64,000 nucleotides of DNA from Agromyces kandeliae (GTDB lineage: Bacteria; Actinomycetota; Actinomycetes; Actinomycetales; Microbacteriaceae): assembly GCF_009674665.1 (NCBI RefSeq), contig NZ_WKJD01000012.1, forward strand, positions 248,001 to 312,000, read 5' to 3'. The notes beneath the pieces were generated by a model. The model was not told the origin of the DNA, did not search any database, and saw nothing but the letters and a program-made list of their open reading frames with translations. Shown piece by piece: positions 6,414 through 45,694 of the stretch. How positions within the stretch are numbered: the first letter of the stretch is position 1; every line of letters begins with the position of its first letter. Position numbers and translations under genes: made by a program.

Positions 6414-8417
6414 TCAGCGCACCCCGTCGCGCTCGGCGAGGGCCGCGAGCCTCGCGTTGTACTCCTCGAGCTCGGCATCGCCCGTGCGGTCGGCGTGCCG
6501 GTCGCGACGCTTCGACTCCTTCGCGTCGGTGCGCGACCACTGCACGGCCACGGTGATGGCGAGCGCCACCGTCGGGATCTCGCCGATCGACCAGGCGATG
6601 CCGCCTCCCAGCTGCTGGTCGGCGAGCGCATCGGTGCCCCACCCCATCGCGCCGTACCAGTCGGCGAGCAGCAGCCCCGTGCCCATCATGATCGCCAGGC
6701 CGAAGAACGCGTGGAACGCCATCGTGCCGAGCAGCAGGAGCAGCCGGAACGCGTACGGAAGGCGGTACGGCACCGGGTCGATCCCGATGAGCGACTGGAC
6801 GAAGAGGTACCCGGTGATGAGGAAGTGGGTGATCATCCACTCGTGCCCGATGTGGTCCTCCATCGACCACCGGAACAGCGGCGAGTAGTAGAAGACCCAG
6901 AGCGAGCCCGCGAAGAGCACCGCCGCGACGATGGGGTTCGCGATGATCGACGCGAACCTCGAGTGCACGGCGAGCAGGATCCACTCGCGCCCACCCCGGC
7001 TGCCGTCCTTCCGCGGGCGGATGGCTCGAGCCGCGAGCGTCACCGGCGCGCCGGGCACCAGCAGCACCGGCACCGCCATCGTCAGCATCATGTGCCCGAG
7101 CATGTGGGCGGAGAAGAGGTAGTTCTCGTACGCCGCGACGCCGCCGCTCGTGACCCACGCGAGGAGCAGCAGGCCCGCGACCCAGAGCACGGTGCGGTAG
7201 ATCGGCCAGCGGTCGCCGCGACGTCGCAGCCGGAGCACGCCCGCGACGTAGAAGAAGATGCCGAACCCGCACGCGATGAGCCAGAGCAGGTCGGGGCTCC
7301 ACTGGGTGAAGTAGGCCGTCGCGTCGGGAGCGGGAGGCAGGGGCTCGCCCGTGAGGATCTCGGCAGGCGTTCGCGCGAGCCCACCCGAGACGTCCTCGTC
7401 GATGGGCGTCGCCGTCCGGGCGAGTGCTGCGGCCACGCCCGAGGCGATGCCCATGAAGGCGAGCTCGATGACGACGAGCAGCCAGAAGGTCCGGTTCGCG
7501 GATCCGCCGGCTGCGCCGCGATCGGTGCGCGCGGCGTCGGCCCGCAGCATCCGGTCGATCAGCACGCGCCGCTGCGTGGCGCCGAACAGGCCGAGGGCCA
7601 CGAGCGCGGCCACCTTCATCACGACCAGCACGCCGTACTGCGTGGCGAGCTGGTCCCAGGTCCCGATCCGGAGGGCGGCGCTCGCGTAGCCGGACACGGC
7701 GACGACGATGAACGCGATGAGCGCGACCGTCGAGTAGCGCGTGAGCACGACCCCGAGCCGATCGCCGTCGAGCGCGGGCTTCAGCAGCACGATCGTGAGG
7801 AGTCCGCCGAGCCAGGCCGCCGCGAAGGCGAGGTGCAGCCCGAGCGCCGTGACCGCCTCGTCGTGGCCGGACGCACCGGCCGCGTGGCCCTGCTGCGCCA
7901 TGGGCACGAGGGCGACGACCGCCAGCACGGCGACGAAGACGAGCGCGGTGTGGTTCCGCACGGCGAAGCACAGCACGGTGACCGCGGCCGCGATCAGGGT
8001 CGTCGCGAGCCACGCCTGGCCGAGCTCGATCGACGTCACGAACTGGCCGAGCTGCTGGCCGAAGCGGTCCCCGAGCGAGAACTCCGCGCCCGTCACGAGC
8101 ATGAAGGTCAGCACGCCGGTCGCGGCGCTCGCGACGGTGAGCACGGCGGCGGATGCCGCGGCCACGTCGAGCGCGAGGTCGAACTCGCGTCGCTTCGGGC
8201 TCAACGCCCAGACGGCCAGCACGAGTGCGCCGATCATCCCCGCGGCGCCGAGGTTCACGAGCAGCTTCGCGACGGGGACGCCCCACCGCGCGATCGGGCC
8301 CGGGTCCTGGATCGGGTACGGCTCCGCGCCGCCGCCGTAGACGAGCGCGGCGGTCATCGCGGCGAGCGCGACGGCGACGAGGGCGGCTGGGCCCAGCACG
8401 CGGGCGGAACGGATCAC
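6414..8417 (-). CDS. CopD-CtaG fusion membrane protein (copper handling / cytochrome oxidase assembly)
   Basis: 667 aa, almost all transmembrane. The first half resembles CopD copper-resistance permeases (LHLAFAAAWLGGLLTIVLL, then YSTVALIAFIVVAVSGYASAALR). The second half resembles the caa3-type oxidase assembly factor CtaG (LFSAHMLGHMMLTMAVPVLLV, HEWMITHFLITGYLF, MGWGTDALADQQLGGGIAW). Conserved His and Met pairs in HMLGHMM and HDEWM-like positions are plausible copper ligands. Joined CopD-CtaG proteins are known in actinobacteria and are thought to move copper across the membrane toward terminal oxidase. It lies downstream of hup behind a strong terminator, so it has its own promoter; the gap before its start is short. 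Confidence 0.88.
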   Translation of the reverse strand: MIRSARVLGPAALVAVALAAMTAALVYGGGAEPYPIQDPGPIARWGVPVAKLLVNLGAAGMIGALVLAVWALSPKRREFDLALDVAAASAAVLTVASAATGVLTFMLVTGAEFSLGDRFGQQLGQFVTSIELGQAWLATTLIAAAVTVLCFAVRNHTALVFVAVLAVVALVPMAQQGHAAGASGHDEAVTALGLHLAFAAAWLGGLLTIVLLKPALDGDRLGVVLTRYSTVALIAFIVVAVSGYASAALRIGTWDQLATQYGVLVVMKVAALVALGLFGATQRRVLIDRMLRADAARTDRGAAGGSANRTFWLLVVIELAFMGIASGVAAALARTATPIDEDVSGGLARTPAEILTGEPLPPAPDATAYFTQWSPDLLWLIACGFGIFFYVAGVLRLRRRGDRWPIYRTVLWVAGLLLLAWVTSGGVAAYENYLFSAHMLGHMMLTMAVPVLLVPGAPVTLAARAIRPRKDGSRGGREWILLAVHSRFASIIANPIVAAVLFAGSLWVFYYSPLFRWSMEDHIGHEWMITHFLITGYLFVQSLIGIDPVPYRLPYAFRLLLLLGTMAFHAFFGLAIMMGTGLLLADWYGAMGWGTDALADQQLGGGIAWSIGEIPTVALAITVAVQWSRTDAKESKRRDRHADRTGDAELEEYNARLAALAERDGVR

Positions 8418-8464
8418 CGTACGAGCCTAGGCGAGCCGGCTGGGAGCGATCGCCCCGGGCACGA

Positions 8465-8499
8465 CGAAGGGGCGCCCGGGAGTACCGGGCGCCCCTTCG
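8465..8499 (-). terminator. Hairpin terminator downstream of hup
   Basis: A 15-bp perfect stem (CGAAGGGGCGCCCGG and its complement) with a GAGTA loop lies 34 nt after the hup stop. No T-run follows, as is common for high-GC actinobacteria. Confidence 0.8.
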
Positions 8500-8533
8500 G
8501 GAGTCGCGGAATGCGTCTGAGGACGCGCGCGGG

Positions 8534-8821
8534 TTACTTCGCGGCGGCCTTGAGCTTGGAGCCCGCGGTCACCTTGACCGAGTTGCCGGCGGCGATCTGG
8601 ATGGTCTCGCCGGTCTGCGGGTTGCGGCCCGTGCGGGCGGCGCGGTGGGTGCGCTCGACGGCGAGCCAGCCCGGGATGGACACCTTGGTGCCCGAGCCGA
8701 CCGACTCGGCGAGGGTGTCGAAGAAGCCGTTGAGCACGGCGTCGACGGCCGTCTGGCTCTGGCCCGTCGACGCGGCGATCTTGGCAACGAGCTCCGACTT
8801 GTTGAGCGACTTGTCAGCCAT
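8534..8821 (-). CDS. hup: HU family DNA-binding protein
   Basis: 95 aa, the compact HU form without the Lys/Ala-rich tail of mycobacterial HupB. MADKSLNKSELVAKIAASTGQSQTAV forms the dimer helices. The beta-arm region contains RAARTGRNPQTGETIQI, with the RNPQTG signature and the Pro that inserts into DNA. C-terminal KVTAGSKLKAA is typical. It bends and packs the nucleoid as a dimer. A -10-like TACATT on the reverse strand (8922-8927) would give a leader of about 90 nt. It is isolated between two strong hairpins, so it is transcribed alone. Confidence 0.95.
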   Translation of the reverse strand: MADKSLNKSELVAKIAASTGQSQTAVDAVLNGFFDTLAESVGSGTKVSIPGWLAVERTHRAARTGRNPQTGETIQIAAGNSVKVTAGSKLKAAAK

Positions 8822-9042
8822 TGAATGTCCTCCTCGGACCTTCGCTGTTGGTACAGCTGTCGTGTGGAAACACGGAGAACGGATCGCATCGATCGCCCCC
8901 GTAGCCGTTCAGGCCGCCTCGAATGTAGCAGAGTCCCGCGGAAACACGCGGATTTCCGGTCCGTTCGGGCAGGTTCGCCGGGGGCTTGACGGATGCCGTG
9001 TCATCCGTCGGGCCCGGCCGCCGGAGCACTGCGCGGGAACGA

Positions 9043-9079
9043 CGAGAGGGGCGCCCCGGAGACCGGGACGCCCCTCTCG
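9043..9079 (-). terminator. Hairpin terminator of the rpmB-rpmG-rpsN operon
   Basis: Stem CGAGAGGGGCG, one C/A mismatch, then CCCGG, an AGA loop and the complementary arm. It starts 15 nt after the rpsN stop. Sixteen base pairs form in total. Confidence 0.8.
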
Positions 9080-9093
9080 GGAAGCGGGTGGAG

Positions 9094-9399
9094 TTACCAG
9101 CTCGACTTCGTGATGCCGGGCAGCTCACCGCGGTGAGCCATGTCACGGAAGCGGACGCGCGAGACGCCGAACTTCGTGAGCACGCCACGGGGGCGGCCGT
9201 CGATGGCATCGCGCGAGCGCACGCGCACCGGCGAGGCGTTGCGGGGCAGCTTCTGCAGGCCGATGCGGGCGGCCTCACGGGCCTCGTCGGTCGCGTTCGC
9301 GTCGACGAGCGTCTTCTTCAGCTCGGCACGCTTCGCGGCGTAGCGGTCGACGACCACCTTGCGCTGCTCGTTGCGCGCGATCTTGCTCTTCTTGGCCAT
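9094..9399 (-). CDS. rpsN: 30S ribosomal protein S14 (long, zinc-free form)
   Basis: 101 aa. This is the long S14 form, starting [17 protein letters not shown] and ending [34 protein letters not shown]. The CxxC pairs of the zinc-binding form are absent. It is the last gene of a three-gene operon with rpmB and rpmG and is followed by a terminator. In many actinobacteria such zinc-free sets are Zur-controlled second copies; in several Microbacteriaceae they are the main copies. No Zur-like palindrome is visible before rpmB. Confidence 0.95.
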
Positions 9400-9402
9400 G
9401 TC

Positions 9403-9570
9403 TTAGCGCTCCTCTCGGAAGTCGACGTGCTTGCGCACCACGGGGTCGTACTTCTTGAGCACGAGACGGTCAGGGTTGTTGCGACGGTTCTTGCGGGTCA
9501 CGTAGGTGTACCCGGTGCCGGCCGTCGAACGGAGCTTGATGATCGGACGGATGTCCTGCTGCTTCGCCAT
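9403..9570 (-). CDS. rpmG: 50S ribosomal protein L33 (zinc-free form)
   Basis: 55 aa, read directly from the reverse strand: it begins [18 protein letters not shown] and ends [12 protein letters not shown]. The [13 protein letters not shown] core and LKKYDP segment are diagnostic for L33. No cysteines are present, so it belongs to the zinc-independent type. Its ATG overlaps the stop of rpmB by one base (TAATG), which implies translational coupling, and rpsN follows 3 nt after its stop. Confidence 0.95.
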
Positions 9571-43377: not shown

Positions 43378-44751
43378 CTACACCTGCACCATGTCGGCGA
43401 ACCGCGAGAAGTGGCCGTGGAACGCCACGGTCACGGTGCGGGTCGGTCCGTTGCGGTGCTTGGCGACGATGAGGTCGGCTTCGCCCGCGCGCGGGCTGTC
43501 GCGCTCGTACGCCGACTCGCGGTGGAGCAGGATGACCATGTCGGCGTCCTGCTCGATCGATCCCGATTCGCGCAGGTCGGAGAGGGCCGGCATCTTGTCG
43601 GCGCGCTGCTCCGGACCACGGTTCAGCTGCGACAGTGCGAGCACCGGCACCTGGAGCTCCTTCGCGAGCAGCTTCAGCGCACGCGAGAACTCGGAGACCT
43701 CTTGCTGCCTGCTCTCGACGCGCTTGCCGCTCGTCATGAGCTGCAGGTAGTCGATGACGACCATCTTCAGGCCGACGCGCTGCTTCAGGCGGCGGCACTT
43801 GGCGCGGATCTCGACGAGCGTCATGTTGGGGGAGTCGTCGATGTAGAGCGGGGCGTCGTTGATGCGGCCGCGGGTCGACGCGATCGTGGTCCAGTCGCGC
43901 GTGTCGACGGTGCCCTTGCGCATGTTCTGCAAGGGCACGGATGCCTCGGCGGAGAGCAGGCGCATCGCGATCTCGCTTCGCCCCATCTCGAGCGAGAAGA
44001 AGATCGTGGGCAGGTCGTGCGTGATCGCCGCGGACCGCGCGAAGTCGAGCGCGAGCGTCGACTTTCCCATCGCGGGACGCGCGGCGACGATGATCATCTG
44101 ACCGGGGTGGAAGCCGTTCGTGAGGTCGTCGAGGTCGGCGAAGCCGGTCGGCACGCCGGTCATCTTGCCGTCGGTGTGCTTGGCCGCCTCGATCTCGTCG
44201 ATCGCGGTGCCGATCGCGTCGGTCAGCGGGACGTAGTCCTCGCTCTCGACCGAGCCCGTGACCGAGTAGATCTCGGCCTGGGCGTTGTTCACGAGCTCGA
44301 CGACCTCGCCCTCGCCCGCGTAGCCCATCTGCACGATGCGCGTGCCGGCCTCGACGAGGCGGCGCAGCAGCGCGCGCTCGGCGACGATCGAGGCGTAGTA
44401 CCCGGCGTTCGCCGCCGTCGGCACGAGGCTCGTGAGCGTGTGCAGGTACTCGACGCCGCCGGCCCGCTGCAGTTCGCCGTTCTTCGTGAGCTCATCGGTG
44501 ACCGCGATGACGTCGGTGGGCTCGCCGTGCGAGTACAGGGCGAGGATGGCGTTGAAGACCACCTCGTGCTTCGGGACGTAGAAGTCGATGCCGCGGAGCG
44601 TCTCGATGACGTCGGCGACCGCGTCCTTCGAGAGCATCATGCCGCCGAGCGCGCTCTGCTCCGCGAGGAGATCGTGCGGAGGCGTCCGCTCGCCGCGACG
44701 GGTCTCGGCCTCGTCGACCGGTTCCGCGATCCCGAGATGCGCGATCGACAA
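43378..44751 (-). CDS. dnaB: Replicative DNA helicase DnaB
   Basis: 457 aa, uninterrupted by an intein. The N-terminal domain begins with TPPHDLLAEQSALGGMMLSKDAVADV. The RecA-like C-terminal domain has Walker A ARPAMGKST near 225, Walker B MVVIDYLQLM and QEVSEFSRALKLLAKELQVPVLALSQLNRGPEQR. The hexamer unwinds DNA at the fork. The TTG start at 44751 has GAGGTAGGA just upstream; related proteins begin MSIAHLG. Its upstream side is the DnaA-box cluster. Confidence 0.95.
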   Translation of the reverse strand: MSIAHLGIAEPVDEAETRRGERTPPHDLLAEQSALGGMMLSKDAVADVIETLRGIDFYVPKHEVVFNAILALYSHGEPTDVIAVTDELTKNGELQRAGGVEYLHTLTSLVPTAANAGYYASIVAERALLRRLVEAGTRIVQMGYAGEGEVVELVNNAQAEIYSVTGSVESEDYVPLTDAIGTAIDEIEAAKHTDGKMTGVPTGFADLDDLTNGFHPGQMIIVAARPAMGKSTLALDFARSAAITHDLPTIFFSLEMGRSEIAMRLLSAEASVPLQNMRKGTVDTRDWTTIASTRGRINDAPLYIDDSPNMTLVEIRAKCRRLKQRVGLKMVVIDYLQLMTSGKRVESRQQEVSEFSRALKLLAKELQVPVLALSQLNRGPEQRADKMPALSDLRESGSIEQDADMVILLHRESAYERDSPRAGEADLIVAKHRNGPTRTVTVAFHGHFSRFADMVQV

Positions 44752-44915
44752 TTCCTACCTCCGCTCGCCCGCCGGGCATGTGCCATCGCCCCGCGACCAG
44801 TCTCGCCGGACCCCCCGACACCTCGTCGAACGGCTCTGGCGGGGCCCGTTCACGGCGTCATTCCGAAGGAGACTGACTCACCATAAGGAAGGGGTTCCCA
44901 CAGCACAAGCCGCCC

Positions 44916-45046
44916 TGTGGATAACTCTGTGGAGGACGTGGGCGAAACGCCGTGGAACATGTGCACAGGTCCTGTGGACAACTGTGGAAATCTTGTGAAT
45001 GACACGGCGTGAATTCGCTTCTGACCTGGGTATTCTCGAATCCACA
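44916..45046. promoter_or_regulatory. Cluster of DnaA-box-like sequences upstream of dnaB
   Basis: TGTGGATAA (44916-44924, complement of the consensus TTATCCACA), TGTGGACAA (44973-44981, complement of TTGTCCACA favoured in actinobacteria), TGTGGAAAT (44983-44991) and, in the other direction, GAATCCACA (45038-45046). A further TGTGGAGG follows the first box (44928). Two of the boxes are exact. The cluster could control dnaB or hold DnaA. Confidence 0.65.
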
Positions 45047-45186
45047 CCTGTGGGGGGAAAATTCTTCCGTTTTCCCTCCGCCGCATTCGCCCTCCTGTGT
45101 ACAAACCTGAGGACAGCACCCCGAAATGCGGACTTGCGGCGGCCCGACCGACGGGTGTAATACAGCCGCGAACGGCGTGCAGCACG

Positions 45187-45223
45187 ACGACGCGGCGGGG
45201 GCCTCAGCCCACCGCCGCGTCGT
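45187..45223 (-). terminator. Terminator of the rpsF-ssb-rpsR-rplI operon
   Basis: ACGACGCGGCGG pairs with CCGCCGCGTCGT, plus GGG/CCC across one bulged A, around CCTCAG. It begins 19 nt after the rplI stop. Confidence 0.75.
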
Positions 45224-45241
45224 GCGTTGCGTCGGAAGCGA

Positions 45242-45694
45242 CTACTTCGCCGCGACCACCTGGAGGGTGACCGTCGCGGTGACTTCGTCGCGCAGCTTGA
45301 CGGTGACCTCGTGGTCGCCGACCGACTTCACCGGTGCGGTGAACTCCACCTTGCGCTTGTCGATCTCGCCGAGGCCGGCGTCGGCGACGGCCGACGCGAC
45401 ATCCGCCGGCTTGACCGAGCCGAACAGGCGGCCGCCGAGGCCGGCCTTGACGGCCAGCTTGACCTTCGCCGACTCGAGCTTGGCCTTGAGGGCCTGCGCG
45501 TCCTCGAGGGAGTGCAGCTCGCGCGCGGCGCGCGCGGCCTTGATCTGGTCGACCTGCTTCTGGCCGCCACGGGTCCACGGGGTCGCGAAGCCCTGGGGGA
45601 CGAGGTAGTTGCGGGCGTACCCGTTCTTGACCTCGACCACGTCGCCGGCCTCGCCGAGACCGGAGACCTCGTGCGTGAGGATGATCTTTGCCAT
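45242..45694 (-). CDS. rplI: 50S ribosomal protein L9
   Basis: 150 aa, full length. [37 protein letters not shown] is the N-terminal rRNA-binding domain with the L9 signature. A long helix ([30 protein letters not shown]) connects to the C-terminal domain ending [19 protein letters not shown]. It is the last gene of rpsF-ssb-rpsR-rplI and starts 11 nt after rpsR. Confidence 0.96.

Follow-up and report, generated by a model that had tools for sequence, protein, structure and literature searches.

Introduction

DnaA is best known for initiating replication. At oriC of E. coli, arrays of same-facing low-affinity sites about 11 bp apart lie between strong boxes. Reviews describe DnaA-box clusters near oriC that hold back untimely initiation in B. 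subtilis and S. coelicolor (PMC4585315, PMC5742627). The closest described counterpart of the locus analyzed here is mycobacterial. In M. tuberculosis DNA, Hicks et al. (2020) mapped five regions bound by DnaA in vitro, and mycobacterial homologs of all five were found (PMC7738170). In the passages on dnaB, mycobacterial DnaA binds upstream of this gene both in vitro and in vivo, and the DnaA mutant I282T, whose binding there is weaker, uniquely under-expresses dnaB, a link that is a correlation (PMC7738170). These authors see agreement with Caulobacter for dnaB (PMC7738170).

We analyzed a 64-kb stretch of the Agromyces kandeliae genome (the window; C4:248001-312000 of a 3.78-Mb genome in 22 contigs), in which DnaA boxes cluster upstream of dnaB. 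The locus is like the mycobacterial site in the Rv0057 region in its gene, its side and its DnaA boxes, and at that site, in one mutant, the level of dnaB expression goes along with DnaA binding (PMC7738170). The box array, its spacing to a predicted -35 element and its conservation across Actinobacteria have no counterpart in the passages of that paper on the Rv0057-region site, the two loci being compared by description (PMC7738170).

Loci and Genomes Compared

The first comparison set held 80 actinobacterial dnaB loci (Microbacteriaceae 26, Streptomycetaceae 34, others 20). These were grouped by record titles, which placed L062 (titled Curtobacterium) among the others and L080 (titled Saccharothrix) with the Streptomycetaceae. 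The second set took one genome per genus of Microbacteriaceae; one of the 60 (G018) had no full dnaB and was left out, leaving 59. A class-wide set was drawn from 40 genomes, of which 10 were left out; the other genomes besides our own gave 29 loci, and removal of two short upstreams and four loci without the N-terminal part left 23. In many class relatives (e.g. G077, G081, G095), dnaB was matched in separate pieces inside one long open frame, as expected of inteins.

A DnaA-Box Array in the Gap Upstream of dnaB

The genes dnaB, rplI, rpsR and ssb lie in this order on the minus strand, with a gap of 490 bp between the first two, and the nearest dnaB in the species collection is that of Agromyces sp. 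Marseille-P2726 (93% identity). A previous reading of the window from its letters alone (the sequence-only reading) had described a cluster of boxes beside an AT-rich patch in a gene-free stretch of 490 bp. All of its motifs were present where it had placed them, over a total span of 131 bp, and the length of the stretch was exact (44752-45241, between dnaB and rplI). The patch was also there in modest form, at 53% AT in the 40-bp windows from 45012 and 45032, vs 37% gap-wide. Beyond this description, we found weak sites at 44928, 44939, 44951 and 44960, an adjoining predicted promoter and TGTGTACAA at 45096 (Table 1).

Counted upstream from the predicted -35, the slots of the window at 7, 19, 30, 42, 51, 64 and 74 bp have 0, 2, 4, 3, 2, 0 and 2 mismatches, as scored by eye. 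Slots 30 and 42 may be DnaA sites as well. The block CGGCGTTTCGCnCA (44939-44952, minus strand) is conserved across the family to the same degree as the boxes, and it could be either a degenerate DnaA slot or the site of another factor.

Table 1. Features in and around the gap upstream of dnaB (window positions; slots in bp upstream of the predicted -35)
Feature	Position	Strand	Remarks
dnaB, replicative helicase	43378..44751	-	457 aa, TTG start; Pfam DnaB + DnaB_C
GGAGGT ribosome-binding motif of dnaB	44757-44762		identified by eye from sequence
Predicted transcript start of dnaB	near 44873-44874	-	inferred
Predicted -10 TATGGT	44880..44885	-	pattern TTGN3-N16-18-TANNGT 7 bp from exact box; alignment column conserved
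Predicted -35 TTGTGC	44903..44908	-	17 bp from -10
Exact DnaA box TGTGGATAA / TTATCCACA	44916..44924	-	slot 7, 7 bp upstream of predicted -35
Weak box TCCTCCACA	44928..44936	-	slot 19; 2 mismatches; conserved TcTCCACA column; distance peak 19-20
Conserved block CGGCGTTTCGCCCA	44939..44952	-	its TTTCGCCCA part is slot 30, possible degenerate box, 4 mismatches
Possible degenerate box TGTTCCACG	44951..44959	-	slot 42; 3 mismatches; sequence only, column not conserved in consensus
Weak box CTGTGCACA	44960..44968	-	slot 51; 2 mismatches; conserved TgTnCACA column; distance peak 51-52
Exact DnaA box TGTGGACAA / TTGTCCACA	44973..44981	-	slot 64
Weak box TGTGGAAAT / ATTTCCACA	44983..44991	-	slot 74; 2 mismatches; distance peak 74
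Weak box GAATCCACA, opposite-facing	45038..45046	+	2 mismatches; from sequence
Outlying box TGTGTACAA / TTGTACACA	45096..45104	-	1 mismatch
Strong hairpin directly 3' of rplI	45170..45241	-	possible rplI transcript end; no T run
rplI	45242-45694	-	

The sequence-only reading had named an equal density of boxes at random in intergenic DNA as grounds for dropping the cluster, and the counts speak for clustering beyond chance. The gap holds two exact boxes, three boxes with at most one mismatch and five TCCACA cores; dinucleotide-preserving shuffles of the gap gave means of 0.006, 0.12 and 0.28, respectively, and none of 2000 reached any of these counts. The whole genome has seven exact TTRTCCACA boxes, vs four for a reversed control pattern, and two of the seven lie in the dnaB gap, 57 bp apart. 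Chance or base composition as the source of the boxes is rejected by the shuffles together with the genome-wide counts. At the one-mismatch level, the window as a whole is unremarkable (6 boxes vs 4.0 expected), and clustering is what stands out. In Agromyces cerinus, the dnaB pair, again 57 bp apart, is the sole pair within 200 bp among the 14 exact boxes listed. The rarity of exact boxes is not general, since Pseudarthrobacter has at least 79 and Rothia at least 44.

The hairpin next to rplI has a predicted stability of -42.7 kcal/mol (z -3.5), which none of 200 shuffles equaled, and a terminator scan did not call it. No Rfam family was matched at gathering scores in the 64-kb window, and an RNA leader or riboswitch was rejected on this basis; the window also contains no tRNA.

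The Boxes Follow dnaB Across Actinobacteria

Within 700 bp upstream of dnaB, boxes with at most one mismatch occur at 5.9, 6.5 and 6.9 per kb in the Microbacteriaceae, the Streptomycetaceae and the others, vs 0.085, 0.115 and 0.33 per kb elsewhere in these loci, so that the upstream density in the 80 loci is 21-70 times that of the flanks. At least one box is present in 78 of the 80 loci and at least two in 75. The same holds within the family, where every one of the 59 genera has at least one box upstream of dnaB and 55 have at least two. Class-wide, 22 of the 23 loci carry at least one box and 14 carry at least two, at 22 times the density of the flanks.

The boxes could in principle have belonged to rplI, which lies within 1 kb in 17 of the 80 loci (15 of them with at least two boxes). 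This candidate was rejected, because the boxes remain at dnaB in loci that lack rplI within 1 kb, at least two being present in 60 of these 63. The sites are thus conserved with the gene and not with the place, with exceptions in Nesterenkonia and Rothia. The Rothia dnaB has a single weak box. In Nesterenkonia (2 of the 80 loci), boxes are absent at dnaB, and a module of three boxes lies 2.9 kb upstream of it (L083:93-210, L085:104-166), with a minus-strand gene between the module and dnaB; by eye, a similar predicted promoter lies near the L083 module.

A Predicted Promoter at a Fixed Distance from the Array

We aligned the upstream regions of 21 Microbacteriaceae and found TTnTCCACAG, TgTnCACA, CGGcGTTTCnCgCA, TcTCCACAgaGTTATCCACAGG, TTG, a spacer and TAnnGTG in this order. 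The dnaB strand of the window reads TTATCCACA (44924-44916), 7 bp, TTGTGC (44908-44903), 17 bp and TATGGT (44885-44880). A sigma-70 consensus scan found no promoter, and the proposed elements are of the weaker TTGNNN / TANNGT kind. The pattern used to search for them, TTG-N3-N16-18-TANNGT, was picked after viewing the 21-sequence alignment; its density in dnaB upstreams is about 52 times that in the gene and the DNA that follows.

In the 59-genus set, which is mostly but not wholly independent of the alignment (at least one genome is in both), a forward box stands ahead of this pattern in 38 genera, in 34 of them at 7-8 bp. In 2000 trials with circularly shifted box positions, the count at that distance averaged 0.28 and never exceeded 3. 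Among 81 sequences (the 80 loci and the window), 67 have an exact box 0-30 bp before the predicted -35, so that in both sets boxes keep a fixed place just upstream of the predicted promoter. Forward boxes in the 81 sequences lie at 7-8 bp (23), 18-20 bp (7) and 28 bp (1), and 36 inverted boxes, mostly in Streptomyces, lie at 5-6 bp. The strict pair of box and promoter is absent in 21 of the 59 genera and in 18 of the 23 class loci. The distances cluster at 7-8, 17-20 and 28-30 bp, in steps of about one helical turn, a spacing that would suit a need for DnaA and RNA polymerase to lie on one face of the helix. A single rigid DnaA contact cannot hold for all loci, because Streptomyces and its relatives have the promoter-proximal box in inverted orientation.

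The array behind the proximal box is also ordered. In the 120 bp upstream of the -35, boxes with at most one mismatch face the promoter 101 times and the opposite way 5 times across the 38 genera. Forward sites with at most two mismatches peak at 7-8, 19-20, 51-52, 62-64 and 74 bp, and the best period tried was 11.0 bp (vector length 0.90), with positions that are homologous and not independent draws. At slot 29-30, the 38 genera hold three boxes with at most one mismatch. Several Microbacterium upstreams (e.g. L010, L016, L017, L020) contain, at a greater distance from dnaB than the array, the direct repeat AACCTTCAA ... CTTCAA; it is absent in the window and is a possible site of another regulator.

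When box and promoter were joined into one composite (TCCACA-N6-9-TTG-N19-21-TANNGT), our genome had a single match, at dnaB. The 60 family genomes had 44 matches, 35 at dnaB and 9 elsewhere; the latter are at background level, since the reversed-pattern control gave 20. The box-promoter geometry is therefore close to dnaB-specific in Microbacteriaceae.

An exact box that lies upstream of the -35 without covering it is in an activator's place. The opposite effect, in which DnaA represses dnaB from the array and limits the helicase when the initiator is abundant, would suit a box just 7 bp from the -35, from which an oligomer could spread across that element, and autorepression by DnaA is a known type of regulation. 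We nevertheless judge repression to be quite unlikely, as the boxes end upstream of the -35, no listed slot covers the -35 or the -10, and the mycobacterial mutant with weaker DnaA binding has lower, not higher, dnaB expression (PMC7738170).

Proposed Role of the Array

We conclude that the gap contains a real, conserved regulatory element, and we consider it likely, from sequence comparison, that DnaA activates dnaB from the array. Direct observation covers the motifs and how they are spaced, their association with dnaB across Actinobacteria and the near-unique occurrence of the composite in the genome. Of the two roles that the sequence-only reading had offered, control of dnaB by DnaA is well borne out by the comparison: the boxes follow dnaB, they keep a spacing of 7-8 bp or about one helical turn more, the composite is nearly unique and binding in mycobacteria has been published. 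The other role, a DnaA-holding site like datA, gained no specific support.

The organism's DnaA has both the ATPase domain and the box-binding domain. The conserved, mostly one-directional array of boxes stops 7 bp short of the -35 of a predicted housekeeping promoter; DnaA likely assembles on this array as an oligomer and activates dnaB. The exact boxes at slots 7 and 64 would anchor DnaA, and the weak sites between the anchors, about 11 bp apart on one strand, would fill cooperatively, probably at high ATP-DnaA. The promoter-proximal DnaA would then contact RNA polymerase at the -35, and helicase output would rise with initiator activity. As a side effect, the array may also retain some DnaA near oriC.

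We also put forward, tentatively, a wider possibility: Actinobacteria may tie helicase supply to the state of the initiator by a nearly one-gene DnaA switch. Such a switch would consist of DnaA sites at intervals of about 11 bp, arranged as an oriC-like filament array that reads toward the promoter and is fixed to the same helix face as the -35; it would turn dnaB on at high ATP-DnaA and would have been kept class-wide through changes in gene order. If a deeply conserved, promoter-phased array of this kind is real, supply of the motor that DnaA loads would also be set by the initiator, and the array would explain why DnaA has a peak upstream of dnaB in mycobacteria. The array would name exact sites to mutate in harmless actinobacteria, and the composite motif offers a simple genome-wide test for DnaA-run promoters, which in Microbacteriaceae points almost only to dnaB.

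These proposals take DnaA to be the protein that reads the TCCACA motifs. Its binding here is predicted from motifs, and the CGGCGTTTCGCnCA block could be another factor's site, but a different reader of the boxes is highly improbable: the exact TTATCCACA and TTGTCCACA are among the high-affinity DnaA boxes tabulated for many bacteria, including S. coelicolor and M. tuberculosis (PMC4285127), and DnaA binds the homologous place in mycobacteria (PMC7738170).

Relation to oriC

Like the low-affinity arrays of E. coli oriC, the array has weak sites that face one way and follow each other at about 11 bp, with strong boxes on either side; unlike these, it lies beside a predicted promoter and 22.9 kb from dnaA-dnaN, with a modest AT-richer patch as candidate unwinding element. 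The genes dnaA (L002:6290-7939) and dnaN (8359-9546) are on the same contig, and the gap between them is 22.9 kb from the cluster, in agreement with the remark of the sequence-only reading that this is not the usual place of oriC. That gap has two one-mismatch and five two-mismatch boxes and no exact TTRTCCACA.

The strong boxes and the weak sites at steps of about 11 bp resemble one half of an oriC, and the array has an AT-richer patch on its upstream side, which would fit a secondary or former replication origin that is upstream of dnaB by happenstance. We regard this as very improbable, as the gap of dnaA-dnaN is itself rich in boxes (7 sites with at most two mismatches, none exact), the array does not adjoin either gene, the patch, as a candidate unwinding element, peaks at just 53% AT and the array keeps promoter geometry. 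GC skew in the window was too noisy to inform on an origin.

Other DnaA-Box Places in the Genome and Titration

The other exact boxes of the genome are two between a rhomboid-like gene and crgA (C4:329052, 329174), one on contig C14 and two on C19. The first two belong to a second DnaA-box cluster, outside the window (L003:9053-9183, i.e. G000:C4:329052-329182), between convergent genes, 3' of both neighbors and thus 3' of crgA. Here the rhomboid-like gene was named from sequence by eye; the 80-aa reading of crgA had no Pfam match, and its identity rests on a family search. We surveyed 30 loci of the 39 genomes matched and found at least one box within 400 bp 3' of the crgA match in 25 and at least two in 22, at 17 times the density elsewhere in those loci. 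Mycobacterial Rv0011c is crgA. The place of the cluster matches that of the mycobacterial Rv0010c-Rv0011c DnaA site, to which it would be the conserved counterpart in the present genome (PMC7738170). Unlike the dnaB array, from which it is a separate element about 36 kb away, it lies between convergent genes; no promoter being apparent there, it makes the better candidate for a DnaA sink.

This bears on whether the dnaB array could itself be a datA-like site, one that mainly titrates DnaA or promotes its ATP hydrolysis near oriC against untimely initiation, with any effect on dnaB incidental. The array has several boxes within 22.9 kb of the dnaA-dnaN gap, and Nesterenkonia retains its box module away from dnaB. 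By their descriptions in reviews, datA and the repressive clusters near oriC of B. subtilis and S. coelicolor are likewise intergenic box clusters near the origin (PMC4585315, PMC5742627); unlike them, the dnaB array is tied to the predicted promoter of one gene. Nothing would require a pure sink to stay 7-8 bp from a promoter or to move with dnaB when gene order changes, and the crgA-side cluster of the same genome fits a sink better. We therefore find a datA-like role unlikely and retain activation of dnaB as our preferred reading.

The exact boxes on C19 (L005:3047 and 4021) and C14 (L004:3043) are near gene starts; the genes there, both named by eye, are a small helix-turn-helix-like one and a CpaF-like ATPase. 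A box pair about 975-990 bp apart also occurs in two other genomes, among the matches listed.
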